34,303 bases of DNA, from NCBI GenBank assembly GCA_016188575.1, contig JACPHN010000102.1, positions 1-34,303 on the forward strand, given 5' to 3'. Of this stretch, positions 5,714-23,562 are shown in pieces. This DNA is from Candidatus Schekmanbacteria bacterium (GTDB lineage: Bacteria > CSSED10-310 > JACPHN01). The position numbers and the translations under genes are program-made. How positions within the stretch are numbered: position 1 is the stretch's first letter; every line of letters starts with the position of its first letter. The notes beneath the pieces were generated by a model. It saw only the letters and a program-made list of their open reading frames with translations, was not told the DNA's origin and did not search any database.

Positions 5714-6745
5714 TCAGAATGACAGAGAAAACGTCAATTTGGCAATGATGTCATCGTCGGGGGCCTCGGCATCACCCTCCGCATCGTAGAACGCGTAGGA
5801 CACGTTCGGAATGACGCTAAAGCGCTTGTGGACGCGATAGTCCCAGCCGACTATCAACAGGTTCGACTTTGACGACTTGTCGAAGGTGTAGTAGCTGATC
5901 TTGTCCGCACCCGGAATCACGTCCAGCGTCTTGTCGTACCGCGCCAGCAGACTCGAATTATCGCTCGTGTTGACCACCCCGTAGAGCGACACGAGATCCA
6001 GGTCCACATCCTCGCCATCGGCGCTGTCACGCGTCTGCCGGGCGGCGAGCGCACCCACACGGCCCCAGCCCCCCTTGAACCCGGCAAATACTTGATAGGT
6101 CTTGCGATTGGTGTCTCCAGGCCGGTTCTCGAAGTCCACGTACGCCTGCACCAGGAAGGACTCCGTCGGCGCAAAACCGATCGCAGCCATGGCCTTCTTG
6201 CCCTGATCCGTCTCGCCCTTCGTCCCCGACCCGTTGCCCAGCATGGCGTGGTACAGCAGTTTCTTGTCCAGCGCCTTGCCCTTCAGCGCCAGACCAAAGT
6301 CCCGTGACGATCCATAACCCCACAGGTCCAGCGGCGTCTTTTCCACGGGCCGGTAGCCCCATTCACTTTCGACCAGATCGAAGGTCGGGGTGCCGGAAAG
6401 GCCAATGTACAACTCTTGGGAAGCGAGCTTCCACTGCACATAGGCGTCCTTCACGAAGGGGACCATGTTCGCGCTGGTAGTGAAATCACCCGCGGACGAG
6501 GCCTCGAAGCGCAGGCGTCCCGATATCGTATCGGTGATTTTCGGATCGAAGGTCAAATAGACGCGACGAATCCAGTATCCGTTAGACCCTTCTATATCCT
6601 TGTTGTGATCCTTGGCAACCCAATAAACATCTCCAAATACATTGCCGCTGATCTTGAAGTTCTGATACCAGGCCGGTTCGTCTGCGTGCGCGATTGATCC
6701 AAACAGCATTGCCATCATGGGAACAAGCACAAGTAGCCGCTTCAT
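5714..6745 (-). CDS. Outer-membrane beta-barrel porin
   Basis: This encodes 343 residues beginning with a signal peptide that ends at about residue 21 (SIAHA-DEP). The rest is a run of alternating amphipathic strands, including SGRLRFEAS, DAYVQWKLASQELYIGL, VQAYVDFEN and LIVGWDYRVHKRFSVIPNVSY. It finishes FSLSF, with the terminal Phe recognised by the outer-membrane assembly machinery. It resembles phosphate-selective porin O/P-like or short-chain-solute barrels, so it probably admits a small, perhaps anionic, solute. GGAGGAGAT precedes the ATG. The gene is 51 bases after the rhodanese lipoprotein and is the last gene of the respiratory operon. A rhodanese-like lipoprotein next to a porin also occurs in the Geobacter ext cluster (ExtH/ExtI). 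The shared role is inferred. Confidence 0.8.
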   Translation of the reverse strand: MKRLLVLVPMMAMLFGSIAHADEPAWYQNFKISGNVFGDVYWVAKDHNKDIEGSNGYWIRRVYLTFDPKITDTISGRLRFEASSAGDFTTSANMVPFVKDAYVQWKLASQELYIGLSGTPTFDLVESEWGYRPVEKTPLDLWGYGSSRDFGLALKGKALDKKLLYHAMLGNGSGTKGETDQGKKAMAAIGFAPTESFLVQAYVDFENRPGDTNRKTYQVFAGFKGGWGRVGALAARQTRDSADGEDVDLDLVSLYGVVNTSDNSSLLARYDKTLDVIPGADKISYYTFDKSSKSNLLIVGWDYRVHKRFSVIPNVSYAFYDAEGDAEAPDDDIIAKLTFSLSF

Positions 6746-6796: not shown

Positions 6797-7321
6797 TCAA
6801 CAATCTCTGTATATACCGCCTGCTCCTTCCTCCCTCTCAGCCGAGCTCGGCGCACGGTCGCTTCCCCCGGAACGATCGGCGTCTTTCCAGTCCGCCAGAC
6901 CACCGGTATTGCTCACGTTCCGGTAGCCGGCCCGCAGCAGAATCTCCTTGGCGCGCGCGGCACGCACGCCTGCGGCACAGTACACAAGGATCGGTCGATC
7001 GAGGTCGTTTCCCGCCAGCGCGCCCACCTCCCCGAGCCGCGCAGCGATGTCCGACTCCGGCATCAGAATCGCGTTCGGCAAATGCTCCCTTGCGTACTCC
7101 TCCGGCGTGCGCACGTCCAGCAGCACGGCGCCTCGGCGAAGCAGGTCGCGTGCCAGCGCAATGTCGCGATCGGGAAGATTCGAGCGGAGCTCGGTGACGG
7201 GCCGCGCACTGCTGAGGGGCACCGCCTCGCGATTCCCGCACCCGCCGCACAGGCACAGGCAGGATGCCACCATGACCTGAATCCACCGCCTGTTCGGCTG
7301 CAAGCTGTGCAGAAAGCGCAT
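6797..7321 (-). CDS. Lipoprotein rhodanese (periplasmic sulfurtransferase-like)
   Basis: This encodes 174 residues. The N-terminus is basic then hydrophobic and ends in a Cys-rich lipobox (LCGGC, Cys28), so it is likely a membrane-anchored periplasmic protein. Residues 50-150 form one rhodanese domain. It has the CH2-like motif LLDVRTPEEYAREHLPNA and the active-site loop CAAGVR with Cys115, so the catalytic persulfide cysteine is intact. The last 25 residues are polar and look disordered. Periplasmic rhodaneses such as Sud of Wolinella pass polysulfide sulfur to a Psr-type reductase. Here the gene lies downstream of a Psr-like complex, which supports a sulfur- or selenium-handling role. The start at 7321 gives the signal peptide; the ribosome site is weak. 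A REP-like repeat lies directly upstream. Confidence 0.82.
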   Translation of the reverse strand: MRFLHSLQPNRRWIQVMVASCLCLCGGCGNREAVPLSSARPVTELRSNLPDRDIALARDLLRRGAVLLDVRTPEEYAREHLPNAILMPESDIAARLGEVGALAGNDLDRPILVYCAAGVRAARAKEILLRAGYRNVSNTGGLADWKDADRSGGSDRAPSSAEREEGAGGIYRDC

Positions 7322-7324
7322 CAC

Positions 7325-7366
7325 GAAGACCCCCCACCTCACCTCCCCCCGCCAGCGGCGGGAGGG
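7325..7366. repeat. Dispersed palindromic (REP-like) repeat, copy 2
   Basis: This element begins GAAGACCCCCCACCTCACCT, matching copy 4 at 31869 almost base for base, and continues into the hairpin CCCGCC-agc-GGCGGG. It lies in the 164-base gap between the polyferredoxin and rhodanese genes and abuts the rhodanese start. It may affect mRNA stability or translation between the two genes. The rest of the gap shows nothing I can name. Confidence 0.75.
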
Positions 7367-7485
7367 ACGGAGGGGGACGCTGTCGCGTCGACCTCGAACA
7401 TGGGGTGGATTCGGGATGACGATGGCGGTTGCGCTGGGGCCGAGCATCTGCATGGTTCGCATCTTGTGGTACCTCCCAACGTGGT

Positions 7486-9018
7486 CTAGAGCGCGAAGGC
7501 GGGAGCGCGGCAGGCATCACAGAGCGCGGCGCGCACTGCCGGCGTCGCATGCTCGGCGCGTGCCAGTCGGGCGCCGACGAGCTGCTGCAGGCGCCCTGAC
7601 TCCACGGCCTTTCCACAGCGCGCGCACGCGGCAGATTCCACCTCGACGAGGGTTTCCGTGCGGTCGTCGAGGATCGCGTCGGTCAGGCGCCGCTCGAGCA
7701 CCAAGGCCCCGGCCGCTCGCTCGGGACAGCGCGCCGCACACAGGCCGCACGCAACGCAGCGCGAGGGCGTAAACAGCAGGCGCTGGCGACCGCCGGTACG
7801 CTCACAATGCAGCGCACTCGTGGGGCACGCGAGTGCGCATACGCCGCACAGCGCACATGCGTCCGCATTCACGTCAAGGGCGCCGAAGGGGGAGAAGGGG
7901 TCGGCGACGTCCAGTCGCGCTTCCCCGCCCGCGAAGCGCCGTACGAGCTGTCGGATCACGGCTGCCGTCAACCGCCCCCCATCTCCGGCGGCCTCGTCCG
8001 CCAGCCACGCGTCGTCGTAAGCGGCCGCGCCGCTGTCGTCATCGGGCAGCTCTTCGTGCGCCCGGGACGAGAGCTCCAGGCGCGCCGGATTGGCGTCCAG
8101 AGCCGCCAGCACGCGGCGACCGAGCTCTACCCGACCTCCCAGTCGTTCGGCCGTTCCCCGTTCGTGCTCGTGCCCCTCACCCCCCATCGCGACGCTGACT
8201 CTGGCGGCGCCCAGCGCCAGAGGAAGAAGGAGCAGCGCCGGTGAGAGCAGCGAGACGCAATGGACTTCCACCGGAAGCGCGCCGGTCTCGCTCGGGCCGC
8301 CGCCGCGGCACCGATAGGCCACCTCCCAGGTCGGGAGCTCGGAGCTCGCCAGCCGCGCCAGTGCGCGCACCTGGGTGAGGATCTGCCGAGTCGTCGAGCC
8401 AGGCAGGAATAGCGCACCAACCGGGCACGCGGCCACGCACTGCCCGCAACCGGTACACTCCTGGGGAGCGATCGCCACGGCCGTTCGACCCGGCGCGATC
8501 GCGTGTTGCTGGCAAGCCTCCAGGCACCTTTTGCAGCCCCGGCCGGCGGCACATCGCTCGTGCGCGACTACCGGAACCGGCTCCAGATGCGCCGGCCGCA
8601 AGCGCAGAATGGATCTTCTGGACAGGGTTCGCGGCAGTGCGAAGCGATACCCGTCCGGACCCGGGGGCTCGAAAGCGCCCAGTCGGGCAAGCGCCCCGGC
8701 CACGAGGAGCCGAGCGCGCCGCGCGGCAACAGCCTGAGACCCGGCGCCGCTTCTGGGCAGGACAACGACGTCCACGCACAGCGGCTCGATACCTGCTCGC
8801 CGGCCTTCCTCCTGCATGAGCTGGTTGTCGACCGGCGTCGAGCACAGGCCGAGCAGCAGCCGATCCATCCCGGCCGGCACGCGGCCCACAAGCCGCGACG
8901 GATCGCAGCACAGTCCCGGCACCACCGCGCCGCGCGGCTCGGCGAGCCCCAGCCCCAGACTCGCCGCGGCGGGCACATGCTCGCAGGAGAGCACGCCGAC
9001 TGTGCTCGGAACACTCAT
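7486..9018 (-). CDS. Polyferredoxin with HdrA/MvhD-like segments
   Basis: This is a soluble 510-residue iron-sulfur protein with no signal peptide. Four [4Fe-4S] motifs are visible: Cys156-x5-Cys-x2-Cys-x3-Cys, Cys188-x2-Cys-x2-Cys-x3-Cys, and two adjacent ones in the C-terminal third (CALCGVCALAC and CVACGLCAARC). A pair of CxxC motifs at the C-terminus (CARC, CDAC) could bind zinc or iron. The N-terminal 85 residues (VGVLSCEH..., LCSTPVDNQLMQEEGRRAGI) and the stretch around residues 250-320 resemble parts of HdrA and of MvhD-type subunits, so it may carry electrons in the cytoplasm. The start overlaps the chaperone stop by four bases (ATGA), implying translational coupling. Its role may be electron supply or assembly of the molybdoenzyme; the family assignment is tentative. 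Confidence 0.75.
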   Translation of the reverse strand: MSVPSTVGVLSCEHVPAAASLGLGLAEPRGAVVPGLCCDPSRLVGRVPAGMDRLLLGLCSTPVDNQLMQEEGRRAGIEPLCVDVVVLPRSGAGSQAVAARRARLLVAGALARLGAFEPPGPDGYRFALPRTLSRRSILRLRPAHLEPVPVVAHERCAAGRGCKRCLEACQQHAIAPGRTAVAIAPQECTGCGQCVAACPVGALFLPGSTTRQILTQVRALARLASSELPTWEVAYRCRGGGPSETGALPVEVHCVSLLSPALLLLPLALGAARVSVAMGGEGHEHERGTAERLGGRVELGRRVLAALDANPARLELSSRAHEELPDDDSGAAAYDDAWLADEAAGDGGRLTAAVIRQLVRRFAGGEARLDVADPFSPFGALDVNADACALCGVCALACPTSALHCERTGGRQRLLFTPSRCVACGLCAARCPERAAGALVLERRLTDAILDDRTETLVEVESAACARCGKAVESGRLQQLVGARLARAEHATPAVRAALCDACRAPAFAL

Positions 9019-9761
9019 CGTGACACCGTACCCACGCCGTCAGAAAGACCCACCACCTCACCACCCCCCGCTTGCGGCGGGAGGCCAAGCTCGTCACTGT
9101 GGAGCCACTGTTCATCTCTCAGCAAGACGCCCACGGTACCCCCCGCCACTGCCCGATAGAAGCCGCACCGATCTGCCTCGACGACGCGGCGGGCAAACTC
9201 TGGAAACCATCTGAGCACGTGCCGCCGGAGAAAGCCCGCCTGTGTTCTCATCGCGGCATGGCCCGCACCCTCGGCCCATCCGCGCGACTCTTGCCGGCAC
9301 AAGTGGGCCATGATCTCGAGCTCGACGACGACGTAGTCCGCCGTGTCGCATAGCGAATCTCGCAAGGTGACGCCGGCGTCGGCGTATTCGCGCAGGAGCT
9401 CGGCGTTGACCACACCCCGGTGATGCGATGGCTTGGTCGCATAGGCCGACTCATAGGGTGGCGCCACCGCGTTGGCCTCGAAGAGGCGCACGTGCTCCGT
9501 TTGGAGCGCGAGCAGAGGAGTCGCCGCGAGCGCCGCCTGCGCCTCCTCCGCGAGCCGCTCCCAGGCCGCGAGCAAGGGAAGCTGACCGCCGCACTGGTGC
9601 CAGGATTCCGACCGCGCGAGCTCGTCCTGCAACGTCTCGACGCGGCCGGCATCCGGGTACTGAAGAGCGGAGGCGATCAGCCGGTAGACGGCGTGACGCA
9701 CCGCCGCGAGAAGCTCAAGCTCTCTGTGCCGCTGTTGCGTTGCCGCCGTCTGGTCCGACAT
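9015..9761 (-). CDS. TorD/DmsD-family molybdoenzyme assembly chaperone
   Basis: This is a 248-residue cytoplasmic helical protein. The family signature is seen around residues 88-107: EHVRLFEANAVAPPYESAY, matching the E-x3-LF ... PYES(V/A)Y pattern of TorD-like chaperones. These proteins bind the Tat leader of a molybdoenzyme and hold it until cofactor is inserted. The client is presumably the Tat-signal oxidoreductase at the head of this operon. The ATG overlaps the stop of the small membrane protein by one base (TAATG), and its own stop overlaps the polyferredoxin start (ATGA). The last 20 or so residues (including LPPQAGGGEVVG) are encoded by a REP-like repeat and look like a recent, non-conserved tail. 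Confidence 0.85.
   Translation of the reverse strand: MSDQTAATQQRHRELELLAAVRHAVYRLIASALQYPDAGRVETLQDELARSESWHQCGGQLPLLAAWERLAEEAQAALAATPLLALQTEHVRLFEANAVAPPYESAYATKPSHHRGVVNAELLREYADAGVTLRDSLCDTADYVVVELEIMAHLCRQESRGWAEGAGHAAMRTQAGFLRRHVLRWFPEFARRVVEADRCGFYRAVAGGTVGVLLRDEQWLHSDELGLPPQAGGGEVVGLSDGVGTVSR
9046..9084. repeat. Dispersed palindromic (REP-like) repeat, copy 3, inside a coding end
   Basis: AGACCCACCACCTCACCACC is followed by the hairpin CCCCGC-ttg-CGGCGGG. It is clearly related to copies at 7325 and 31869, though with more substitutions. It lies within the 3' end of the chaperone gene and supplies its final residues, so the insertion was tolerated in frame. Confidence 0.7.
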
Positions 9762-10063: not shown

Positions 10064-11344
10064 TTACTCGGCCCCGTCCGTCAGGTCGATCACTGGAAAG
10101 ACCTTGACGAAGATCGCGAAAATCAGGCAGCCCAGCGCAATGACGCCGAGCACGACTGCATACTCCACCGAGGTCGGCGAATAGGAACCCGTCCCGTAGG
10201 GCAGCAGGGTCCCGTGTGTCTGCGATGGCACCACCAGCAGGTACCGCTTGGCGATCGCTGCCACGTTGACGAGCGCGCCGGCGACCACGAGCTGCGTCAG
10301 GCTGAACTGATTGCGGACCCATTGGCCGAAAAGAATCGCCAGCGGCACGACCAGGCAGATCACGGCCAGCCAGTAGGTGGAGGCGAAATCGCCACCGAGC
10401 AGAGCCTTGGTCAGCTTCAGCTCGTGCTGATGCCCTTCGTACGCCCCGGTGAGCCACTCCACCACCATGAAGTACAGATACGCGAGCACCAGCACCATGA
10501 GGAGGTTTCCAAGCCACCTGAAGATGCGATCGTCGAGTCTGGTCTCGGCTCCATAGAGCCTTCTGAACAGGGCCGCTACCAGGATGACGAGCCCGACACC
10601 CGACACTCCGGCCATCACGACGAACCCCGGAGCCTGCAAAGCGCTGTGCCAGCCTGGCCGGCCGACCTGCAGGCCGAAAACGAAGCCCAGCGTCGAGTGC
10701 GCGGTTACGAGCAGCGGAAGAATCGCAATGGCCAACCAGAAACTGGCGACTTTTCGCCGGTGCTGCTCGGCCGGGGTGCCGCGATAGCCGGCTGCCCAGA
10801 GCCGGTGCAGGCCTTGCAGGCGGCTCGGCACCTGGGCGCACGTCGCCGCATCGGGTCTGCTGGCCAGGTACAGGTACACCAGGCTCGCAAAGAAGTAGCC
10901 CGAGACGACGAGAGTAAAGGTGCCGAAGAACGGCGACTGCGGCCGTGCGTAGCGAAACAGATTGGTGATGCCGCGGAGCGGCTGCCCGAGGTCAGGCAGG
11001 ATGCACAGGCCCGCCAGGATGAGGGCGGTGACCGTAATCAGCTCGGCGATTCGGGAGATTGGTTTGAGATAGTGGACGTCCAGCAGCCGAATCATGGCGG
11101 CGATGGTGATGCCGGCAAAGCTCACGCCGACGAAGTAGATCAGGAAAACGATGTACAGGCCCCACGTCGCTCCACCCATCGAGCCGATGTCGCGGAGGCC
11201 GGTGATGATGTGGCCTTCCGAGAGTTGGCGGCCATAGCTCAACAGGCCGATGGCCAGCAACACGAGCATGCCCATGACGAAGGTGAGGTACTTGGGGGTC
11301 AGTTGGCCAACGCCGAACGGCAGTCGTTCGAGTTTCGCTTGCAT
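10064..11344 (-). CDS. NrfD/PsrC-family quinone-reactive membrane subunit
   Basis: This encodes 426 residues with roughly ten hydrophobic helices. It is the integral subunit that exchanges electrons between the quinone pool and the attached ferredoxin subunit. Family features include the long N-terminal PsrC-like core (GATWGLYIVFLIYFVGVSFAG) and the segment STLGFVFGLQVGRPGWHSAL followed by APGFVVMAGVSG, as in ActC/QrcD-like ten-helix NrfD proteins. Helices near the C-terminus are preceded by KRYLLVVPSQTHG. AGAGGAG lies nine bases before the ATG, inside the end of the ferredoxin gene, and only three bases separate the two genes. The size and helix number favour the ActC/HmcC-like subtype over the eight-helix PsrC, but the reaction direction cannot be read from sequence. 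Confidence 0.88.
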   Translation of the reverse strand: MQAKLERLPFGVGQLTPKYLTFVMGMLVLLAIGLLSYGRQLSEGHIITGLRDIGSMGGATWGLYIVFLIYFVGVSFAGITIAAMIRLLDVHYLKPISRIAELITVTALILAGLCILPDLGQPLRGITNLFRYARPQSPFFGTFTLVVSGYFFASLVYLYLASRPDAATCAQVPSRLQGLHRLWAAGYRGTPAEQHRRKVASFWLAIAILPLLVTAHSTLGFVFGLQVGRPGWHSALQAPGFVVMAGVSGVGLVILVAALFRRLYGAETRLDDRIFRWLGNLLMVLVLAYLYFMVVEWLTGAYEGHQHELKLTKALLGGDFASTYWLAVICLVVPLAILFGQWVRNQFSLTQLVVAGALVNVAAIAKRYLLVVPSQTHGTLLPYGTGSYSPTSVEYAVVLGVIALGCLIFAIFVKVFPVIDLTDGAE

Positions 11345-11347
11345 CGC

Positions 11348-12085
11348 CTAACTCCTCTTTCCAGCGGGCTGGATCTGGCGCCAGCCATGACCGTGCGGGG
11401 TGCCGCCGACGTACTGCACGCGCGGGTGGGTACCGGCCTCCTCGAGAAGCCGGAAGCTGCTCTTCCTTTGCAGCTTCTGGGACGGTTCACTGGCCGGGTC
11501 ATCGAGATCGCCGAAGATGATGGCGTGCTCCGGGCAATTGGCGGCGCAGGCCGTCGTCTTGCCGGCCTCGACCCGATGCACGCAGAACGTGCATTTCTCG
11601 ATCACGCCCTCCACATGCGAGGCGCCGGCGATGTGGCGCTTTTCGGGGCCGCACGGCCGGTCCAGGTCGGGGTTCTTGTACGGGGGAATCACGCCGCCGG
11701 ACAGCGCCTCGAGCTCGGGGTCCTTCCAATTTACGTACTGGTTTTCTTCCGGGTCGCGCCAGTTGAAGTAGTTGACGCTGTAGGGGCAGGCGACCTCGCA
11801 GTAGCGGCAACCGATACAGCGATCCCAATCGGTCGCGACGATGCCGTCCTCGCGCTTGTACCGCGCGCCCACCGGGCATACCTTGGCACACGGGGCGTTG
11901 TCGCAATGCATGCACGGCCGCGGCATGAACCAGATGCGCGTGTTTGGATATTCGCCTTCCTCGAACCGGAAGACGTACATCCAGAAGCTTCCCTCGGGGG
12001 TGTTGTTCTCTACCTTGCAGGCCGCCATGCATGCGCGGCAACCGGTGCAACGATCGAGGTCTATGACCATTCCATAGCGTGGCAT
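11348..12085 (-). CDS. Four-cluster ferredoxin subunit (PsrB/NrfC/TtrB type)
   Basis: This is a 245-residue electron-transfer subunit between the molybdoenzyme and the NrfD protein. Four cysteine sets are visible: Cys13-16-19-23, Cys58-61-66-70, Cys90-93-96-100, and a C-terminal CTFC ... CAANC set. That is the complement for four [4Fe-4S] clusters, as in PsrB, TtrB and DmsB. No signal peptide is present; such subunits are co-exported with the Tat-signal partner. I chose the ATG at 12085 (MPRYGMVIDLDRC) because AGGAGG lies just upstream and the longer in-frame extension lies within the previous gene. The gene begins 17 bases after the catalytic subunit stop. The last 40 residues beyond the fourth cluster set resemble no particular domain. 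Confidence 0.92.
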   Translation of the reverse strand: MPRYGMVIDLDRCTGCRACMAACKVENNTPEGSFWMYVFRFEEGEYPNTRIWFMPRPCMHCDNAPCAKVCPVGARYKREDGIVATDWDRCIGCRYCEVACPYSVNYFNWRDPEENQYVNWKDPELEALSGGVIPPYKNPDLDRPCGPEKRHIAGASHVEGVIEKCTFCVHRVEAGKTTACAANCPEHAIIFGDLDDPASEPSQKLQRKSSFRLLEEAGTHPRVQYVGGTPHGHGWRQIQPAGKRS

Positions 12086-12102: not shown

Positions 12103-14664
12103 TCACGCCTTGTAGACGCGGACCTTGACGTGAAAGCTTTGATCCGCGGTGTTGGTAACGTAACCCTCCCCTGTGAAGAAGAGCTCGTTCGGCGACGCGC
12201 CCATCCCCTTGGCGCGGGGGTGTACCCACATGCCGTAGTGGTGGGCCATACCGACGGTGTCGGGCCGGATGCTCTCCCGATAGCTGGCGACCACCTTCAG
12301 CTTGCGGGTTTCACCTGTGATGGCGTTGTGGCTCTCGACCCAGACTTCGTCTCCGTCCTCGATGCCACGGCTGCTCGCGGCCTTGGGATTGATCTCGAGG
12401 CATTGATCGGGCGCGAGCTCGTTCAAGATGGGGATGAACGCGCTGCGCGACTGCTTGAATTCGATGAGCTTGAACGAGACGAGGTAGAGATCGTAGTCCG
12501 CCGGTGAGGCATCGAGAGTGAGCGGGCGCCAGGTCGGCAGGGGCGTGTAGTCACGCCAGTAGATCTCGTCGGCGCCCTTGGCCTTCATCTCCTGTTGGAT
12601 CCGCAGGAGCGATTCGCCGTACAGGCGCTGAATGCGGCCGTCGAAGGGAGGATTCTGAGCGATCCCGTAGAACTTGCTGGCGGGCACGGGCCCCTTGACC
12701 TTGACGCCGTTTCTTTCGAAGAACGCCACGCCTTCCTCGATCCCCTGGCTTTTGGCCCAGGCGTCGAAAATGGCGCGCACTTCCGGTTTCTTGTCGAGCG
12801 GCAGCAGGTAGGGTTCCTTCAGCTTGAGCGACTTGTTGAGCAGGGCGAGGTAGCCGTCCGGGCCGAGTAGCACGCCGATCTTCTCGCACAGATCGAGATA
12901 GATGTCGATATCGCCTCGGGATTCGTACAGCGGTGCCATGGGGGGAACGCGAAGCGTCACGGCGTCCACATACTGGTCCGTCGCGGAGATGGGCCCTTCG
13001 TACTTTTCCATGGTTGCGGCCGGGAGCACGACGTCGGCGAAGTAGTCCGCCGTCTCGGACAGCCACGGGTCGATCGCCACGACGAACTTGAGCTTGCTGT
13101 ACGCCTCCATGATGTCTTTTCGCGACGGATAGGCGATCAGCGGGTTCGTCATGTGCAGGATGCACACCTCGGGGATTGACTTTACTCCATACTTGGCTGG
13201 GTCTAGCATGGCCTTTGCGACAATGCCAGAGTTGTTCGAGTTGATGGGAAAGAACTTGCTCTCCTTCAGGTAGATGTTGTATGGACCATCCTTGACGGTA
13301 GCCTGATCCAGCTTGTCGTAGTTGTCGTTCGGTTTCCAGGAGAAGTCGACACGCTGCCCGCCTACGGCCTCGACAGCCCCGAGCAGCATCATCACCGTCA
13401 GCATCGCGCGAACGGCCTGGAAGCCGAGCTCCTGCTGGGTCATGTGGTAGGCCATGATCGCCACGGGCCGATACGGCAGCGACAGACCCTCGACGAGCAT
13501 CTTGTTGCCGATCATCGCGTTTTCGCCGAGCTCCTTGGCGACGTGCGCGATGGTGGCGGCGGGGATTCCACAGACGGTCTCGGCCCACTCGGGAGTGTAC
13601 GTCGCGATGTGCTTGGTGAAGACCTCGAAGGCCGGCCTCACCGGCTGGCCGTCAACGGTGAATTCCCCGGACAGCACCGGGTCCCGGGCCTCGGCCCGCA
13701 CCACGGCCGCGCCGGTCGCGGCATCCCAGACCATCTCCGAGCCCGCCATGCGCAGGAAGGTCCCGTCGTCCTTCACGAGATACGGCGCGTTGGTGAAACT
13801 CTTCAGGTAGTCCTGGTCGATGGTGCCTTGCTTCACGAGCTGATGGCAAAGGGCCATGGCCAGCGCCAGGTCCGTCCCCGGCTTGATCGGCAACCACTCG
13901 TCCGCGAAGCGACCGGCGCCGCGCAGGCGAGGATCGATCGCGACCACTTTCAAACCGCGTTCGCGGGCGTCGACCAGTTGGCGCGGCCAGGTCAGATAGC
14001 AGAGCTTGTTGCCGCCGGCGTTGGTGATGTTCCAGCCCCAGGAGAGCAGGTACCGGCAATGCCGGAAATCAGGGTGCAGCACCCCGTGAAGACCGACGGT
14101 GTACTCACAGGCGCGATATCCGGCGTCCGAGCAGTAAGCGCCGTGGTGGAGCTTGGTCGCACCCGTTGCGCCCGCGAACGCGTCGTCGTAGAACGCCTTG
14201 GCCTTGCTACGGCCCTTCTGCCAGATGACCGCGTGCGGATCCCGGGCTCTGGTTTCCTTCACCTTGCCCGCGACCAGCGTCAGCGCCTCCTCCCAGCTTG
14301 CCCGGCGAAACTCGCCTGGCACGCCCTTTTCGTTGGTGCGAATGAGCGGCGCCTTGACCCGGTTGGTGTCGTACATCGCCATGATCTGCGCGATGCCCTT
14401 GGGGCAAAGAGTGCCGTGGTTGACGGGATTGGCGGGGTGACCTTCGAGCTTCACCACGCGGCCACCCACGCGGCGGGCCAGGATCCCGCAATCCTGTTTC
14501 CCGATCCAACACGTGGTCGGGACCCACTCTTCTTTCTGGGCGGCTTGCTTCTCGTCAATCGTCGCTTCGACGATCGTCTCGAGGCAACCCGCCATCAGCG
14601 ACCCCGCCACCAGACTTCCGCTTGCCGCTGCTGCTGAGCTCTTCAGAAATGTCCTTCTCTTCAT
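12103..14664 (-). CDS. Tat-exported molybdopterin oxidoreductase catalytic subunit, atypical [4Fe-4S] motif
   Basis: This 853-residue enzyme of the DMSO reductase superfamily heads the operon. The Tat leader is MKRRTFLKSSAA, and Cys27 sits in a lipobox-like LMAGC, so it may be a Tat lipoprotein facing the periplasm. The iron-sulfur motif is Cys52-x6-Cys59-x27-Cys87. The canonical pattern is Cys-x2-Cys-x3-Cys-x27-Cys, so residue 55 is Gly where the second Cys should be. Cys178 in HHGAYCSDAG is a likely molybdenum ligand, as in Psr/Phs/Arr/acetylene hydratase-like members. The C-terminal molydopterin-binding domain is present (LEINPKAASSRGIEDGDEVWVES). I start it at 14664, where the Tat motif begins; further upstream the frame is open but unlikely. 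Substrate is unresolved: polysulfide, thiosulfate, selenium or arsenic oxyanions are candidates. Its normal length argues against decay. Confidence 0.88.
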   Translation of the reverse strand: MKRRTFLKSSAAAASGSLVAGSLMAGCLETIVEATIDEKQAAQKEEWVPTTCWIGKQDCGILARRVGGRVVKLEGHPANPVNHGTLCPKGIAQIMAMYDTNRVKAPLIRTNEKGVPGEFRRASWEEALTLVAGKVKETRARDPHAVIWQKGRSKAKAFYDDAFAGATGATKLHHGAYCSDAGYRACEYTVGLHGVLHPDFRHCRYLLSWGWNITNAGGNKLCYLTWPRQLVDARERGLKVVAIDPRLRGAGRFADEWLPIKPGTDLALAMALCHQLVKQGTIDQDYLKSFTNAPYLVKDDGTFLRMAGSEMVWDAATGAAVVRAEARDPVLSGEFTVDGQPVRPAFEVFTKHIATYTPEWAETVCGIPAATIAHVAKELGENAMIGNKMLVEGLSLPYRPVAIMAYHMTQQELGFQAVRAMLTVMMLLGAVEAVGGQRVDFSWKPNDNYDKLDQATVKDGPYNIYLKESKFFPINSNNSGIVAKAMLDPAKYGVKSIPEVCILHMTNPLIAYPSRKDIMEAYSKLKFVVAIDPWLSETADYFADVVLPAATMEKYEGPISATDQYVDAVTLRVPPMAPLYESRGDIDIYLDLCEKIGVLLGPDGYLALLNKSLKLKEPYLLPLDKKPEVRAIFDAWAKSQGIEEGVAFFERNGVKVKGPVPASKFYGIAQNPPFDGRIQRLYGESLLRIQQEMKAKGADEIYWRDYTPLPTWRPLTLDASPADYDLYLVSFKLIEFKQSRSAFIPILNELAPDQCLEINPKAASSRGIEDGDEVWVESHNAITGETRKLKVVASYRESIRPDTVGMAHHYGMWVHPRAKGMGASPNELFFTGEGYVTNTADQSFHVKVRVYKA

Positions 14665-14720: not shown

Positions 14721-14735
14721 GCAAGAATGATGCCG
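14721..14735 (-). promoter_or_regulatory. Candidate sigma-54 (-24/-12) promoter of the molybdoenzyme operon
   Basis: Read on the minus strand, CGGCATCATTCTTGC has the invariant GG and GC with exactly ten bases between them. It matches the consensus TGGCAC-N5-TTGC except for T to C and C to T changes in the -24 box. Transcription would begin about 12 bases downstream, near 14709, leaving a leader of some 45 bases. The divergent gene encodes an NtrC-type activator with an intact GAFTGA loop, so the pairing is sensible. No start-site data exist. Confidence 0.55.
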
Positions 14736-14859: not shown

Positions 14860-16239
14860 ATGAGCTTTTCGGTGCTGCTTGTCGAGGACGAGACGACGCT
14901 GCGGGAGATCGTGGCGCAGGCGTTGCTGGGGCGAGGCGATGAAGCGGTCACCACCGGCAACGGCCGGCGGGCGCTGGAGCTGCTGGGGCAGCGGAGCTTC
15001 GACCTGGTCATCACCGACATTCGGCTGCCGGGCTGCTCCGGGCTAGAGATCCTGACGCATTGTACCCGTCACCTCCCGGCGGTGGCGGTGATTGTCATTA
15101 CCGCCTTCGCGACAATCCCGGAGGCGGTCGGTGCCCTCAAACAGGGGGCCTACCATTATCTGTGCAAGCCGTTCGACATCGACGAGTTGCTCCACCACGT
15201 CGACCAGGTTCGGGAGCGCTGGGCGCTGCGCGCTCAGGTGGCCGAGTTGCGCCAGGCCGTCGCTGCCACCCGGGACGCGTCGGGGCTGTTGGGGCAGTCG
15301 GTCGCGATGTGCCGGATCAGAGAGCTCGTGTCAACCGTGGCGACGGCGGCAAGCAACATCCTGATCACGGGTCCGAGCGGGACTGGAAAGAACCGCGTGG
15401 CGCGGGCCATTCACGACCTCAGCGCGCGGTCCGAGCGGCCCTTTGTCTCCGTCAATTGCGCCGCCATCCCCGATACCCTGCTGGAATCGGCGCTGTTCGG
15501 CCACGAACAGGGCGCGTTCACCGGTGCGGTGCGCAGGCACGACGGGTTCTTCGAACGCGCCCGCGGGGGAACGCTGTTGCTGGACGAAGTCGCCGATCTG
15601 TCGCCGACCTCGCAGGCGAAGATTCTGCAGGTAATCCAGGAACGGACCTTCTACCGCCTCGGCGGAACCAAGCCCATAGATGTCGACGTACGCCTGATCT
15701 CGGCCAGCAATCGGAGTCTGACAGGAATGGTGGAGCGCGGGACCTTCCGGCTCGACCTGTACTACCGGCTCAACGTCGTCGAGATCAAGGTCCCGGCACT
15801 TTGCGAACGCCCCGAGGATATTCCCATTCTCGCCGAGCACTTTCTCAGCCGTCTCGCCGCGGAGCACGGTAGGACCGTCTGCAGATTCGCTCCGGCGGTC
15901 TGGTCCCGCCTGCTGGCGCACCCCTATCCGGGCAACGTGCGCGAGCTGGAGAACGTCATCGAGCGCTGCGTCGTGCTGTGCCGCGGCGAGGAGATCCAGC
16001 TCGAGCACCTTCCTGAAGCGCTCGGCGCCGGCCACCGACCCGCTGCGGCGGCAGTGCCGCCGCGCGGCGAGACGACGCCTCTGAGCGAGGCCGCGCGTGC
16101 CTTCGAAATCGAGTATATCCGCAGCGTTCTGGAGCGGAACCAGGGAAACCGCACCCGCGCCGCCGAAGACCTCGGCATCAGCCGAAAGCACCTGTGGACC
16201 AAGCTCAAGCAGCTCGGACTGGAACCAGACGAAGGGTAG
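14860..16239 (+). CDS. NtrC-family sigma-54-dependent response regulator
   Basis: This 459-residue cytoplasmic regulator has three modules. Residues 1-120 are a receiver domain with phospho-acceptor Asp53 (ITDIRLPG) and Lys103. Residues of about 145-380 are the AAA+ domain with Walker A GPSGTGKN (171-178), the sigma-54 contact loop GAFTGA (218-223) and Walker B LLLDE. The final 45 residues are a Fis-type HTH (AAEDLGISRKHLWTKLKQLGL). It should be phosphorylated by a histidine kinase and activate sigma-54 promoters. The natural partner is the kinase at 21072-22541, which is separated from it by the metzincin module. It is transcribed away from the molybdoenzyme operon, its probable target. Walker A ends in Asn rather than the usual Glu/Ser/Thr. 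GGAG precedes the ATG. Confidence 0.92.
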   Translation: MSFSVLLVEDETTLREIVAQALLGRGDEAVTTGNGRRALELLGQRSFDLVITDIRLPGCSGLEILTHCTRHLPAVAVIVITAFATIPEAVGALKQGAYHYLCKPFDIDELLHHVDQVRERWALRAQVAELRQAVAATRDASGLLGQSVAMCRIRELVSTVATAASNILITGPSGTGKNRVARAIHDLSARSERPFVSVNCAAIPDTLLESALFGHEQGAFTGAVRRHDGFFERARGGTLLLDEVADLSPTSQAKILQVIQERTFYRLGGTKPIDVDVRLISASNRSLTGMVERGTFRLDLYYRLNVVEIKVPALCERPEDIPILAEHFLSRLAAEHGRTVCRFAPAVWSRLLAHPYPGNVRELENVIERCVVLCRGEEIQLEHLPEALGAGHRPAAAAVPPRGETTPLSEAARAFEIEYIRSVLERNQGNRTRAAEDLGISRKHLWTKLKQLGLEPDEG

Positions 16240-16448: not shown

Positions 16449-17558
16449 TCAGGGCTGCCCGGGCGCAGTCTTCCAAGGGTTCTCGCCGGTCACCCAGTCC
16501 TGAAAGCGGATCGGGCGCTGCTGATCCGGAAGGCAGAACCAGTGCTCGATGCGCTTTCCGGGAAAGTCGCGGCGCTGGCGCTCGCACACCAGCTCTTCCA
16601 GGGTGCAGGGTAGGCCGCCCTTGGCATAGGGCCGACTCAGCGCCTCCAGCGCCGCCTTGTGGTCGGGCGGCGGTGCACCGAAGGCTTCGGTGTAGGTGCT
16701 GACGACGAGATACGGTACATCGGCGCCGAAGATTTCCCCGCGGCAATAGGGCGTCGCGAGCAGTGACTGCCAGGCGTAGCGGGCAACTCGCTGCGCGGAG
16801 GTCAGGTCTCCGAGCCGCCTGTAGGCGTCGGCGACCAGCGCGGCGTCGTAGTATCCGTGCGGCGTCGCGGCGATGAGCTCTTCGCCGGCCTCGACCACCC
16901 GTCTCAGCCACAGCGCCGCGTCCGGAGCGTCCATGCTCGTGCATCTCTGCCATGCGGCGTGGACCCGTCGAGACAGCCGCTCCAGAGCGGCGGCTTCCGT
17001 TCCGGCGGGCTCAATCCAGAATCTGACGGCGGGACCTCGCCTGTACCGGGGATCCCGCGGTGCGATCTCCGGAGGAAGAGTTGCCCGCAGAGCGTAAAAT
17101 CCAGGCTGGAGGTTGGTCGAATCGAGCAGCCAGGAGGGGTTGTGGGTCGATTCCGCGAAGGTGCCGGCGGCGCGGCGCACGTCGAGCGCCGGCGTCGGCC
17201 CCACTTCGACGGTAAGGGGCACCTGGTCAGCGTACAGCCGCAGCACGTCGGACGGCGGCACCGGCTTTTGTTCCGAAGTTTCCCACGTTCCGCCTAACCA
17301 GATGCGATCACCCGCAACGAAGCTGGCAACGACTGGAGGACCAGTTATCGCGAACCGCGGCGGCAGATACCCACAGGTGAAACTGTTGCCGGCATTGACG
17401 ACCTGGCTCTCCAGATCGCACACTTGCCACTCGTCGATGCAGTATCTAGGTGCGCCTACGTAGAGCCAAGCGACTTCTTCCCCAGCCAGGCTCGGGGAGA
17501 CGAAAAGCGCTGTTGCAAGACATGCGAGAACGAGACGTTCAATCACGAGAATTTCCAT
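16449..17558 (-). CDS. Secreted companion protein of the metzincin module
   Basis: This 369-residue exported protein has a signal peptide of about 25 residues (ending SPSLAGEE). The N-terminal half (about 30-190) looks like beta-sandwich material with several Cys residues (CIDEWQVCD, FTCGYLPP) that may form disulfides. The second half (about 195-300) is helical and repeat-like (AALERLSRRVHAAWQRC, ALVADAYRRLGDLTSAQRVARYAW), resembling TPR-type packing. It ends in a Cys/Trp-containing tail. The ATG lies 20 bases inside the end of the metzincin gene, so translation is coupled. The same order, metzincin then a secreted protein of this size, recurs at 31996-33760. An inhibitor, chaperone or partner of the protease is possible, but nothing proves it. 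It converges on the response regulator gene. Confidence 0.75.
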   Translation of the reverse strand: MEILVIERLVLACLATALFVSPSLAGEEVAWLYVGAPRYCIDEWQVCDLESQVVNAGNSFTCGYLPPRFAITGPPVVASFVAGDRIWLGGTWETSEQKPVPPSDVLRLYADQVPLTVEVGPTPALDVRRAAGTFAESTHNPSWLLDSTNLQPGFYALRATLPPEIAPRDPRYRRGPAVRFWIEPAGTEAAALERLSRRVHAAWQRCTSMDAPDAALWLRRVVEAGEELIAATPHGYYDAALVADAYRRLGDLTSAQRVARYAWQSLLATPYCRGEIFGADVPYLVVSTYTEAFGAPPPDHKAALEALSRPYAKGGLPCTLEELVCERQRRDFPGKRIEHWFCLPDQQRPIRFQDWVTGENPWKTAPGQP

Positions 17559-20500
17559 GCAACCTCACTTGCAGTCTGTCTTCGTCGTCGGCCGGTAGGC
17601 CATTTCCCAGGATGGCTTGCCAGTGCGGATCGGTGAGACTCGAGGTGCGCGTCAGAAAGTTGGTCACCATAGCCGATTCGCGATTCGCCTCGGCACAGGG
17701 ATCATTGTCGGGGCAGCCGGGAGATCCGGGCTGGCGGTAGTGTGCAGCGCCGATCGCGTGCCCAACCTCGTGGGCCACCGTGAAGGTCATGGCCTCCTCG
17801 TCGTGGGGCTCCGAGAGCGCGGTTTCACTGCTCGTCTGGGGGCTGATGCAGGTGATGGCGTAGAGATGGATGTAGCTGCGGCCCACGGTGTTGAGGTTCC
17901 GCGGTCCGCTCGCATTCGGCCAGAGGGTGCTGCCGATACGAGGGAGAGATGAGCCGCAGCCGTCACCCTGGAAATACTGGTTGGTAAACCAGAGGTAGAT
18001 TCCTCCTTGCCGCGCTCTTCCCAGCGCGGTCTCCCAACGCGGCTTGACCAGTATGCTTGGCCGTTCCGAAAAGCTGAACTCGCTGTTGTCCTTCCGAAAC
18101 AGCTCATGCACGGCCAGGCCCCAGCGAGGGGACAGAAGAGCGACAGCGCTCGAGGCCAGCTCCGGCGCAATGTCAGGGACTCTTGGCACTGACTCGTGGA
18201 TGAGCGGCGCTACGAACAGATCCTTGCGCTCCGGAGAGGTGCGCACGAACCGCCGGTTCGTCACGAAGCCGCGATACTCCTCGTAGGCCGTGAATCCATC
18301 GCCGACAACGCCTTCGGCAGGTTCCCCCGAGGCCGGCGGGTCGGCATCCACGTCCTCGCGCACGTCCGGGCGGTCGGCGATCGGGGTGGGCACCCCGTCC
18401 GCCGCCCATCCTGCGTCCGGTAACCCGCTGCGGTCGTCGTCGCGCGGAAGCTGGCGGAGCTCTTTCGCCGAGCTGTCCCCTCCCGCGGGCGGCCCCACGT
18501 AGGTTTTTTCCCCCTCGACGTCCACCTGCACCGCGAAGTGCCCGTGTGCTCCGAAGTCGGTCGTGCTCGCCTCGATGACCGCGGTCTCCAGCGCTTGCCG
18601 GTCGTCCTCCGGGGTCGCCCCTCTCGCGTAGCGCATCGGTACGTTGAAGCTTGCCTCCCGGAATACCGGGGACACGGAGCTGGCCTCGAGGTCGGGATAG
18701 GCGAAGGCGCTGCTCTCCTCGAGCGTGACCTCCATCGGCCCCCCGTTCCCCTGGTAGGTAACCCGATAAACCACGTCGTCCTCGTTGCCGGGTGCGTCCG
18801 CGGGGTAGTTGGTGGCGATCCCCGGAAACACGGTGCTGGCGGTCGCGAAAGTGAGCGTGGCGCGGTCGGCGGCGAACTTCGGGACCGCCTCGAGACGGTA
18901 GCTCTGGGTGGTGGCGGGCTTGCCCGGGTCGCCGACATCGCCGAGCGGCAGGAAGCTTCGGGGCGTGTCTTGCTTGTAGCGGAATCGCCACCTGGTCTCG
19001 CCATCGGTGGCGTCCCGCGCCGGCGGCCCACCGCTGCCAGCGAGGTCACCATCTCCGTCCCACGGAATGCTTCCCGGGCCACCGCGCCGCCCGCCGCTCC
19101 TGGGTTTCACCGGAATCTCGAACAGCGTTCCGCCCATCGCGACCCTATTGGGGATGCGAAGGCCGCCCAGATACTCCTCTTCGCTCTCCAAGCAGCCGTC
19201 GACCAGATCGCTGCCGCAACCGTACCGCTCGGCGATCGTCGCGCCCGTCGCCCCGCCGCCATCGATCCACACGTACTCGACGTCGATCGCCTCCGAACGC
19301 GAGCGGTGCAAGCCAACCCGCGCCGCCAGCGGCCCCACTGGTCCGGACAGCACCTGCCAGCGCTGGTTGAAGTGATACCAGCCGTCCCCCTGCTCCTCTT
19401 CCAGGCATTCACCGACCGAGCTCGTCAGCGATACCGACACTGGGATCGGCTGCTTGTCGTACCACACCCACTCCTCGGGCTCGGCGCGGCGGCGGCAGTA
19501 CGGCAGCGCCGCATTCAGGCAATCGTAGAGCACCCAGCTCAGCGAGAAGGTGCCGGCGAGCTGCGCCTTCATCGGCACAGACTTGGTTGCCCATGCGGGG
19601 CAACCAAGGTCGTCCTCGACCGTGTCAGTCCACTCAAACGTCAGATCCCAGCGCTCGAGCAGGTCGTCGGCGCGGGCCGGCACGACGTTGCTGAGACGCT
19701 CGGTTTCGACGGTGTCGCTCGAGGCCCCGTGCGCGGGGTCCACCGGCTCGCGAACCACTACGTAGAGCCGGTATTCGTAGTGCGAACCGGGCACGACGGT
19801 GTCGTCGGTCCATTCGGTGACGTCGATACCCGTGATGTGCGCGATGCGGACATGCGACAGCACGTTCGCGGCGGCGCCTGTCACCGCGGCGACGGCGAGG
19901 ATCAGCGCGGCGCCACCGGCCGCCACGCCGCGCCGCCTCCGGACCGCACACCGGCGGGCCACGAGCAGCCAGGGAAACACCAGGAGCGGCAGGCACTGGC
20001 TCACCCGGGACAACGGCACGATCAGCGCCAGCTCGAGGTAGACATCGTAGGCCTCGAAGATCTGCCCGGGACGATCCGGCGTCCAGCGGTTCCAGCCCAG
20101 GCGGATCGCGCGCGCGGAGCTGTCGATGAGGCGCAGGAAAGGCGCCAGCACCCACCGCGCGGTGTCGCCGAACGGCGGGGTGAGCGCGGGGGTAACCGTC
20201 GCGGTCGGCGAGGGGGCCGGGGTGCGGGTCGCCGTGCCGCTCGGCCCGATCGTCGCGGTATCGGTCGCCGTGGGCGTGGGCGTGCGGGTCGAGGTCGGGG
20301 TGCGCGACGGGCTCGCGGTGCGGGTGGCGGTCGACGTTCGCGTGGGGCTGGCGGTGCGCGTCGCCGTGGGCGTCCCGGTGATCGTCGGGGTCGGCGGCAG
20401 CGCGAACGCCGGCAGGTCGATCGCGTCGATCCACACCGCATCGCTGCCGGCGCTGCCCGCCGCGTCCTTCTCGTAGGTCCAGACCAGAGTCCAGACACCA

Positions 20501-20928
20501 ACCGTAAGCGTGTAGGACGCCTGGGTCCACGGCGTCTCCCCGGACCAGCGGTCTTTCTCATAGAGTGTCCCGGAAGCGCCCTGCACCGAAAACACCAGCG
20601 CGTCGCTCTCCGGTTCCGTGGAGGTCCTCAGCCAGAAGCGGACGCTTCCCGATGCGAGTAGCTCGAGCTCGACCTCGAGCACTGCCGCGCTCCCATCCAC
20701 AAGCGGCGCCGAACCCGCAGCATACGTTCCTTCGGCCGCCACGCCCACAACCACCTGCCATCCGGCCTCGGGGCTCATGCTCCACGGCAGCGCCGAGAAG
20801 TCACCCGTCTCGAAAGACTCGACCGCGGCGAGGGCGACGGCCGGAGCGGCGGCCACGGCGATCGCGCCGACGCTCGCCGCCACCCAAAGGCTCAGAGTGA
20901 GAGAGAGAGACATGACGCGCCGGGGCAT
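17539..20928 (-). CDS. Large secreted multidomain metzincin-like metalloprotease
   Basis: This 1129-residue protein starts at the ATG with GGGAGG five bases upstream. It has a signal peptide (about 1-35), a jelly-roll or lectin-like domain (about 36-175), and a Thr/Pro/Arg-rich linker (about 177-252). A fibronectin III-like segment (about 260-385) follows, with two hydrophobic helices inserted near 297-322 and 333-354. A long beta-rich region comes next, and the C-terminal catalytic domain has HEVGHAIGAAH (His1053). This is a full metzincin zinc motif HExxHxxGxxH, and a candidate Met-turn lies about 30 residues on (ESAMVTN). Zinc is inferred from the motif. The two helices could anchor the protein. 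It is followed by an overlapping companion gene and lies between the kinase and regulator of a two-component system. Substrate is unknown. Confidence 0.82.
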   Translation of the reverse strand: MPRRVMSLSLTLSLWVAASVGAIAVAAAPAVALAAVESFETGDFSALPWSMSPEAGWQVVVGVAAEGTYAAGSAPLVDGSAAVLEVELELLASGSVRFWLRTSTEPESDALVFSVQGASGTLYEKDRWSGETPWTQASYTLTVGVWTLVWTYEKDAAGSAGSDAVWIDAIDLPAFALPPTPTITGTPTATRTASPTRTSTATRTASPSRTPTSTRTPTPTATDTATIGPSGTATRTPAPSPTATVTPALTPPFGDTARWVLAPFLRLIDSSARAIRLGWNRWTPDRPGQIFEAYDVYLELALIVPLSRVSQCLPLLVFPWLLVARRCAVRRRRGVAAGGAALILAVAAVTGAAANVLSHVRIAHITGIDVTEWTDDTVVPGSHYEYRLYVVVREPVDPAHGASSDTVETERLSNVVPARADDLLERWDLTFEWTDTVEDDLGCPAWATKSVPMKAQLAGTFSLSWVLYDCLNAALPYCRRRAEPEEWVWYDKQPIPVSVSLTSSVGECLEEEQGDGWYHFNQRWQVLSGPVGPLAARVGLHRSRSEAIDVEYVWIDGGGATGATIAERYGCGSDLVDGCLESEEEYLGGLRIPNRVAMGGTLFEIPVKPRSGGRRGGPGSIPWDGDGDLAGSGGPPARDATDGETRWRFRYKQDTPRSFLPLGDVGDPGKPATTQSYRLEAVPKFAADRATLTFATASTVFPGIATNYPADAPGNEDDVVYRVTYQGNGGPMEVTLEESSAFAYPDLEASSVSPVFREASFNVPMRYARGATPEDDRQALETAVIEASTTDFGAHGHFAVQVDVEGEKTYVGPPAGGDSSAKELRQLPRDDDRSGLPDAGWAADGVPTPIADRPDVREDVDADPPASGEPAEGVVGDGFTAYEEYRGFVTNRRFVRTSPERKDLFVAPLIHESVPRVPDIAPELASSAVALLSPRWGLAVHELFRKDNSEFSFSERPSILVKPRWETALGRARQGGIYLWFTNQYFQGDGCGSSLPRIGSTLWPNASGPRNLNTVGRSYIHLYAITCISPQTSSETALSEPHDEEAMTFTVAHEVGHAIGAAHYRQPGSPGCPDNDPCAEANRESAMVTNFLTRTSSLTDPHWQAILGNGLPADDEDRLQVRLHGNSRD
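20172..20397. repeat. Thr/Pro/Arg-rich low-complexity linker repeat
   Basis: This segment of the metzincin gene encodes an imperfect array of short units such as TPTATRTASPTRT and TPTSTRTPTPTAT. The repeat is degenerate in DNA, with a GTGCGGGT-like theme on the plus strand. Linkers of this type join exported domains and may be glycosylated; that last point is inference. Confidence 0.7.
20899..20910. repeat. (GA)6 dinucleotide tract in the signal-peptide coding end
   Basis: Six GA units (TC on the coding strand) encode Ser-Leu residues in the signal peptide of the metzincin. A change of one unit would shift the frame within the first 15 codons, so this is a possible, though short, phase-variable site. 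Confidence 0.5.
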
Positions 20929-21071
20929 TCGCACCTCCCAAGATATTGGGGACGATCGCCGACTACGATTGTGCGGCGAAGCGTCGCGCGGCGCAAGGGG
21001 CGGGGGCTGACGCCAACCTGCATAAGAACCGATCTGCTGGCCTGCCGCCGCCGGGTCTTGGCGCCGGCCGC

Positions 21072-22541
21072 CTACCCCGGTCCCAGGGTCGCCGCGGCGG
21101 CGCGATCGCTGTCGCCGAGCGCCAACTTCTCCGCTCGGTCCTCGTACAGTCGCAGTCGCATCACGGTCCCGCCTCTCCCCCCTTCCGGCTCCTCGATGAG
21201 CAGCTCGCCGCCATGCGCAGCGACGATGTTGCGGGATACGGACAGCCCCAGTCCAGTTCCGGTCGCCCGCGTCGTATAAAAAGGCTCGAACACCTTGCTC
21301 CTGGCCTCGACGGGGATGCCTGGGCCGTCATCTTCCACCACCACGTCCTGCGCGTTCTCGCCGGAGATCAGCGCCACGGCGATGCGACCATTGCCGCTGG
21401 CGCCGCGGATCGCCTGGCAGGCGTTGAGCAGCAGGTTGACCATGACCTGCCCGATCTGGTCGGCATCGAGGCGCAGAGGCGGCGGCTCGCCGTCGATGCG
21501 CAGCTCGAGCGCGATCTCCTCTTCGCGAAGTGACGGCCTGAACAGCGTCACGGCAGACCGCACCACCTCTGCCAGCGACACGGCGCGAAAATGCGGCGGG
21601 TTGGGCCGGGAAAATGCCAGCAGGCGTTGAACGGTGCGCGCGATCCGCCCAATGGCAACGTCCAGCGCCCCCAGGTAGCTCGCACCTTGCTCCGGCGCCA
21701 GCCCCGGTTGGCCGAGCGCCCAGAGGCATGCCCGCACGCTTGCCAATGGGTTGTTGATTTCGTGAGCGACACCGGCCGCAAGTTGGCCCGCCGCCGCCAT
21801 CTGCTCACTTCTGACCAGGGCCTGGCAAGAGCTGCTCAACTTGGCGGTCATCTCGTTGAACGCTTCCGCGAGCACGCCGAGCTCGTCCTCCGTCATCGGC
21901 GGGATGCGCACCGCAAGGTCCCCCGATCCGATTCTGCCGGCCATCTCGGCCAACTGCCGCAGCGGCGCGGTCAACACTCCGCCCATGAACAGCGCCACGC
22001 CGATCCCGATCGCGGTGAGGAAAGCGAACAAAATCAGCAGCCGAACGGTGATACTCCGGGCGAGAGCGAAGTCACGTTCCTGGTCGATGGCGGCGTGGAG
22101 ACGGCCGGCGCGGCCGCCGAGCAAGTCGATGGCGATGTGCCGCAGCCGCCTGCCGCGGTCCAGGATCAGCAGGTCCTCCGCGGCAGCCGCACGCGCGAGG
22201 ACCGCGTCGAGCGCCACCGGCGTTTGCGCGCCGAAGCTCGTCGCGACGATGCGGCCCTCGCCGCCAGCCACGACGAGATACACCAGGCGCGGATCGCGCT
22301 CCACGGTTTCGAAGAGCTGCATCTGGAGCTCAAAGGTATTCTCGGTGAGCGCACTGTTGACGATCTCGGCGGACAGGCCCTGGAGATATTGAAGGTAGTT
22401 TTCGCGGGTCGTATTCTGGATGGCGTCCGCGACCAGGACCTGCAGAAACGCCAGGACGCTCGTGCCGAACGAAACGCTGGCGACGACCATGATGGCGACG
22501 AGCTTGGCGCGCAGGCTTCGTTGGAGGTGCCTCAGCAACAT
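21072..22541 (-). CDS. Membrane sensor histidine kinase
   Basis: This 489-residue kinase has a periplasmic sensing region (about 38-160) between two membrane helices (about 14-36 and 165-190). A HAMP linker follows (TAPLRQLAEMAGRIGSGDLAVRI), then a HisKA domain with phospho-acceptor His260 in GVAHEINNPLASV, and an HATPase domain with N, G1 and G2 boxes (NLLLNACQAI, DDGPGIP, GTGLGLS). It should phosphorylate the NtrC-type regulator at 14860, the only response regulator in the window. The ATG overlaps the stop of the binding-protein gene by one base, so the two are translated together, as in AioX-AioS and ArxX-ArxS. It lies 137 bases upstream of the metzincin ATG, so that gene might be part of a longer transcript. 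Confidence 0.9.
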   Translation of the reverse strand: MLLRHLQRSLRAKLVAIMVVASVSFGTSVLAFLQVLVADAIQNTTRENYLQYLQGLSAEIVNSALTENTFELQMQLFETVERDPRLVYLVVAGGEGRIVATSFGAQTPVALDAVLARAAAAEDLLILDRGRRLRHIAIDLLGGRAGRLHAAIDQERDFALARSITVRLLILFAFLTAIGIGVALFMGGVLTAPLRQLAEMAGRIGSGDLAVRIPPMTEDELGVLAEAFNEMTAKLSSSCQALVRSEQMAAAGQLAAGVAHEINNPLASVRACLWALGQPGLAPEQGASYLGALDVAIGRIARTVQRLLAFSRPNPPHFRAVSLAEVVRSAVTLFRPSLREEEIALELRIDGEPPPLRLDADQIGQVMVNLLLNACQAIRGASGNGRIAVALISGENAQDVVVEDDGPGIPVEARSKVFEPFYTTRATGTGLGLSVSRNIVAAHGGELLIEEPEGGRGGTVMRLRLYEDRAEKLALGDSDRAAAATLGPG

Positions 22542-23551: not shown

Positions 23552-23562
23552 AGGTCTCGCAG

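Follow-up and report, generated by a model that had tools for sequence, protein, structure and literature searches.

A family of predicted respiratory molybdoenzymes with glycine in place of the second cysteine of the FS0 cluster motif

Genes at the locus

The window, by which we mean the whole stretch of DNA analyzed, comprises 34,303 nucleotides of contig JACPHN010000102.1 from Candidatus Schekmanbacteria bacterium (GCA_016188575.1). On its minus strand, at positions 12103 to 14664, lies gene A, which is predicted from its translation, its Pfam domains, and the conservation of R3/R4 to encode an 853-residue catalytic Mo-bisPGD subunit with the twin-arginine signal MKRRTFLK. The coding part (12106 to 14664) forms one unbroken frame followed by a stop codon at 12103 to 12105, while the plus strand over 12103 to 14664 is noncoding. 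Three Pfam domains scored above their cutoffs, namely the Fe4S4 domain (PF04879, residues 46 to 98), the molybdopterin domain, and the dinucleotide-binding domain. The twin arginines are kept in 67 of 69 aligned proteins. Cys178 (14131 to 14133) is the expected Mo/W ligand, given its alignment with the Mo-ligand cysteine of ArrA and PsrA, and it is invariant in the family described below and in its sister groups.

The motif for the FS0 cluster reads CWIGKQDC (residues 52 to 59; 14488 to 14511, minus strand). It begins with Cys52 (14509 to 14511), has Gly55 (codon GGG, 14500 to 14502) where the second cysteine is expected, and ends with Cys59 (14488 to 14490). The last FS0 ligand, Cys87 (14404 to 14406), is followed by P-K89-G, where K89 is the lysine between cluster and pterin. 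The initial annotation, which gave no strand, had read this arrangement as C52-x2-G55-x3-C59-x27-C87 with canonical spacing, and the minus-strand translation bears it out. Among relatives, the x27 spacing is usual rather than absolute: haloarchaeal members fall slightly short of it, and at one locus (L075) inserted residues lengthen the stretch from Cys59 to Cys87. K89, the counterpart of Lys44 in FDH-H, was present in 57 of 58 family proteins, which fits a working FS0 cluster.

To place these genes in context, we compared them with 80 loci from a first-round scan of genome contigs, in which one of the search peptides was CWIGKQDC itself. Four further minus-strand genes make up the operon. B (11348 to 12085) encodes an electron-transfer subunit with four intact canonical [4Fe-4S] motifs and has relatives in 70 of the 80 loci. 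C (10064 to 11344) encodes an NrfD-type membrane subunit of 426 amino acids (PF03916; relatives in 62 loci), and D (9015 to 9761) encodes a TorD-family maturation chaperone (PF02613; 52 loci). E (7486 to 9018) encodes a polyferredoxin with a weak FlpD/MvhD-like part, found in 45 loci; we know of no such protein in the Psr, Arr, or Ttr operons. Together, these genes are predicted to encode a membrane respiratory complex (A, the four-cluster B, and NrfD, with TorD) plus a conserved extra ferredoxin. Downstream of the operon, at 6797 to 7462, is a rhodanese gene (F), which had no counterpart in any of the 80 first-round loci. Elsewhere in the window, positions 5714 to 6745 gave a weak match to a Desulfovibrio-type outer-membrane porin model, and positions 17539 to 20934 encode a predicted secreted protein of 1131 amino acids that contains Thr/Pro-rich repeats and weakly matches a metallopeptidase. 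At two other loci (L005:6216-9821 and L055:9987-13148), the operon adjoins a gene for another long catalytic subunit of the complex iron-sulfur molybdoenzyme (CISM) type, which is distantly related and has its own NrfD gene nearby.

Three XSR-type regulatory genes surround the operon. R (14860 to 16239, plus strand) diverges from A and encodes an NtrC-type sigma-54 response regulator (PF00158, PF00072, and PF02954). Upstream of A, at 14721 to 14735 on the minus strand, is a sigma-54-like −24/−12 site (CGGCAT-N5-TTGC) that scored 12.5 of 14.5; with about 0.05 such sites expected by chance in that stretch from window-wide counts, we take it as weak evidence. About 8 kb from A, X (22541 to 23695, minus strand) encodes an ArrX/AioX-type periplasmic binding protein with the PhnD fold (PF12974), and domain search identified S (21072 to 22541, minus strand), which adjoins X, as a HAMP/HisKA histidine kinase.

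The best PDB match of X was ArrX (158 bits), ahead of AioX (99 bits) and PtxB (55 bits), in a database that holds few PhnD-fold sensors; sensors of this fold may bind other ligands. Of the 80 first-round loci, many of them short, 18 carried a PhnD-fold protein, usually near the operon and with genes for a histidine kinase and a NarL-type regulator beside it. Two of these proteins gave a similar ranking, with 207 and 161 bits for ArrX, 131 and 111 bits for AioX, and 75 and 57 bits for phosphite/phosphonate binders. The pocket residues listed for AioX (PMC5908839) are Y88, C106, Y131, S161, S163, H192, and D210. Six of them are matched in X by Y166, C184, Y211, S241, H272, and D290, and the equivalent of S163 is a threonine, so that X has the PhnD fold and, apart from one Ser-to-Thr change, the pocket residues that characterize AioX, ArxX, and ArrX. 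The AioX pocket residues are conserved in the X proteins, including the pocket cysteine, which is absent from PhnD and present in 19 of 19. X is therefore a putative arsenic sensor of the ArrX/AioX kind.

Fixation and origin of Gly55

The initial annotation had proposed aligning relatives that carry the CWIGKQDC string to see whether Gly55 is fixed, and had named two findings that would undo its reading, close homologs with cysteine at this position and a sequencing error at the GGG codon. Each of the 67 first-round relatives whose sequence extends over residue 55 has glycine there. Among motif-bearing reading frames, the residue was encoded by GGC (55), GGG (14), GGT (6), and GGA (3), a pattern indicating that synonymous change is tolerated at this codon and that amino acid change is not. 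Uniform glycine through four different codons also rules out a sequencing error.

Since CWIGKQDC had itself served as a search peptide, we checked for bias by searching about 1,300 genomes with a profile (A2) built from residues 100 to 853 of A only, which start after the motif. Every match above 600 bits that contained the site read CW[IV]GKQ[DG]C, and none had Cys55. Matches at 309 to 521 bits, which represent related groups, carried CxxC, except for two CxxD proteins (L155 and L156). In a maximum-likelihood tree, all 24 sampled Gly55 proteins fell on one side of a single branch (SH-aLRT, 100) within the CxxC relatives. The same tree indicated that the two exceptions, whose motif is CNMD/CNLD-YNAC with Asp in place of the second cysteine, changed independently of the Gly55 clade.

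The clade is broad. Its bacterial members come from Chloroflexota, Actinomycetota, Thermomicrobiota, Armatimonadota, Methylomirabilota, Rokubacteria, Nitrospinota, and Bacillota, and it also takes in several archaeal lineages; the carriers are mostly metagenome-assembled genomes, although the named strains Halomicrobium katesii and Candidatus Lucifugimonas marina are among them. Two family genes of one genome, L124 (G149:C122) and L135 (G149:C22), each have an in-frame stop in the assembly. Across bacterial and archaeal members, C52, C59, and C87 are near-invariant. Alignment against the sister groups further identified W53, G55, K56, Q57, D58, R152, H174, and C222 as both near-invariant and specific to the family. 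The earlier view that the altered motif is not random decay thus holds up: the motif is under strong constraint, and the loss is common to the whole clade. By these alignments and the tree, the loss of Cys55 is old, single, and constrained.

Relation to known enzymes and candidate substrate

Gene A belongs among the CISM/MopB proteins on the basis of its Pfam domains, a fold search, the four-cluster B, and the NrfD anchor. Its family lacks the canonical four-Cys FS0 motif, which is common, not universal, in CISM enzymes. Scores against curated models fell far below the cutoffs for ArrA (NF041714; 165 bits against 1600), PhsA (NF012032; 258 against 694), TtrA (NF011567; 61 against 1750), and AioA (TIGR02693; 24 against 359). 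By fold and partners, we classify A as a CISM that would work in the manner of Psr or Arr, and on these scores it stands outside the ArrA, PhsA, TtrA, and AioA families.

The nearest points of comparison differ in what they share with A. ArrA/ArxA (PDB 6cz7), the best Foldseek match, resembles it in fold, Cys Mo ligand, Tat export, four-cluster partner, and XSR-type regulation with an ArrX-like sensor, whereas the A family has a CxxG motif at FS0, an extra loop bearing Cys222, and the extra polyferredoxin E. AioA/IdrA likewise depart from the four-Cys FS0 site, and aio is under AioX-type regulation; in those enzymes, however, the fourth ligand rather than the second is lost, and the partner is a Rieske protein, unlike the four-cluster ferredoxin B. 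PsrA/PhsA (PDB 2vpw) is the best sequence match among solved structures and shares the NrfD anchor and four-cluster B, but the FS0 motif of PhsA is CxxC. The unaffiliated 'Deep' CISM of Halodesulfurarchaeum (HTSR_0627; PMC5437934) is described as an unassigned haloarchaeal lineage as well. Kinship with the Sb(III) oxidase NaoABC was set aside, as its paper places NaoA next to NapA. Our literature search returned no paper for the string CWIGKQDC and no biochemically characterized family member, and the CxxG motif is not described in the portions of Wells et al. 2020, Wells et al. 2023, and Sorokin et al. 2017 that were available.

The complex probably acts on an arsenic oxyanion, as suggested by the regulatory genes around the operon: the ArrX/AioX-like X, the kinase gene S, and R with its sigma-54 regulator. 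Arsenate reduction is slightly favored as the direction, since the sensor is ArrX-like rather than AioX-like. Arsenic-related genes also adjoin several family copies. On a plasmid of Natronorubrum bangense, the family copy is preceded by genes for a low-molecular-weight (LMW) phosphatase, an MFS transporter, and ArsR and is followed by arsD-arsA; at another locus (L049), an LMW phosphatase and ArsR lie near the operon. In 3 of 22 carrier genomes, ACR3-type genes lay no more than about 6 kb from A, compared with about 0.08 expected, with one of the three below the family cutoff and the distance limit set afterwards. In most carriers, the searches made found no ars genes nearby. An active-site argument for arsenic, based on the alignment of R152 and H174 with residues 165 and 189 of ArrA, was dropped because PhsA shares H174 and other paralogues have R152.

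A sulfur compound such as polysulfide, thiosulfate, or tetrathionate is an unlikely substrate, albeit one with several observations in its favor. Among solved structures, the nearest in sequence is PsrA/PhsA of Thermus, PhsA gave the best NCBIfam score for A, B resembles DsrO, and a rhodanese gene lies downstream in the window. Yet A scored far below the cutoffs for both PhsA and TtrA, the rhodanese is missing from the 80 first-round loci, and neither the ArrX-like sensor nor the neighboring ars genes point toward sulfur.

The FS0 cluster without Cys55

The candidate replacement for the lost ligand is Cys222 (13999 to 14001, minus strand), which alignment places in a family-specific loop insertion. 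The initial annotation mentioned neither this cysteine nor the multiphylum spread of the family or its arsenic-type regulation. It was present in 69 of 69 aligned family proteins; its place is empty in nearly all sister-group proteins, and FDH-H, FDH-N, DmsA, and PhsA have a gap there. The loop, which is longer in the Gly55 family than in the sister groups, aligns with residues 175 to 182 of FDH-H, in an alignment that includes the family-specific insertion. According to figure 1 of PMC12176258, Asp179 and Ser180 of FDH-H join a hydrogen-bond network with Lys44, the [4Fe-4S] cluster, and MPT-1; we confirmed K44, D179, and S180 in the E. coli FDH-H sequence. The family has thus lost a cysteine beside the cluster and acquired another in a neighboring loop. 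This makes plausible a cysteine swap that would leave FS0 an all-cysteine [4Fe-4S] cluster, and we advance it tentatively. Cys222 lies about six residues past the Ser180 equivalent, however, and could line the pterin or serve otherwise, and the confidence of the structure model falls to 67 to 85 in this loop.

As a candidate ligand Cys222 is better than Asp58, but a site held by C52, C59, and C87 only is equally open. Such a site would carry a native [3Fe-4S] cluster, or a site-differentiated [4Fe-4S] cluster with a nonprotein ligand, at raised potential, and Cys222 would have another role. We regard this as a good possibility, though short of an even chance. The three cysteines and K89 are retained, and Gly55 places no ligand at its position, which corresponds to the second FS0 cysteine of E. 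coli DmsA. Specifically, Gly55 aligns with C67 of DmsA in the current annotation, which we infer, from a 29-residue shift, to be Cys38 of the older numbering. Trieber et al. are said to have obtained a [3Fe-4S] cluster in 1996 by replacing this second cysteine; the comparison is with the same motif position, but in a laboratory variant of a Ser-ligated enzyme, and electron transfer in that variant was reportedly impaired, which counts against a three-cysteine site. Natural [3Fe-4S] clusters do occur in AioA/IdrA and ActB (PMC10100899). Were only three cysteines involved, the simultaneous, family-specific appearance of Cys222 would be a coincidence.

Two other readings carry far less weight. 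The initial annotation had named Asp58 as a possible substitute ligand, and K56, Q57, and D58 are indeed near-invariant and family-specific; moreover, some ferredoxins have Asp cluster ligands. This proposal was weakened by a natural, full-length member well inside the family (L122:1501-4206), which has Gly58 in an otherwise intact motif (CWIGKQGC). Because of this member, and with Asp58 immediately before Cys59 in an unusual geometry for a second ligand, coordination by Asp58 (or by Lys56 or Gln57) is improbable. Least probable is loss of the cluster, with the site surviving as a structural relic. The N-terminal cluster is absent from some Mo-bisPGD enzymes (PMC10100899), but relic cysteines would be expected to drift, whereas C52, C59, C87, and K89 stay near-invariant in bacterial and archaeal members alike, and B retains all four of its cluster motifs.

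The explanation that best accommodates these observations, and to which we give somewhat better than an even chance as a whole, is that A encodes an exported catalytic subunit belonging to an undescribed CISM lineage in the Cys-ligated chalcogen/metalloid branch near Psr, Phs, and Arr. In the ancestor of this lineage, Cys55 would have been replaced by Gly, after which the site came under tight constraint. FS0 would most likely still be built, as a three-Cys [3Fe-4S] cluster or as a [4Fe-4S] cluster with its fourth iron on the newly gained Cys222, and would carry electrons between B, with its four clusters, and the Mo site. The A-B-NrfD complex would exchange electrons with quinone, most likely with an arsenic oxyanion as its substrate. 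The more specific proposition of an undescribed, multiphylum lineage that respires arsenic oxyanions, with FS0 either rebuilt by exchanging Cys55 for Cys222 or native [3Fe-4S], falls just short of an even chance in our judgment.

Between the molybdenum site and the respiratory chain, FS0 comes first in the relay, and its potential is tuned by its ligands and neighbors. A lineage found in nature with Gly fixed at the second ligand position and a candidate replacement elsewhere offers a direct test of how clusters of this kind can be rebuilt in evolution. If the arsenic assignment is true, the enzyme would represent one more arsenic-oxyanion lineage, present in SAR202, Nitrospinota, Acidimicrobiia, hot-spring Chloroflexota and Armatimonadota, haloarchaea, and others, and surveys that rely on the genes arrA, arxA, and aioA would be likely to overlook it.
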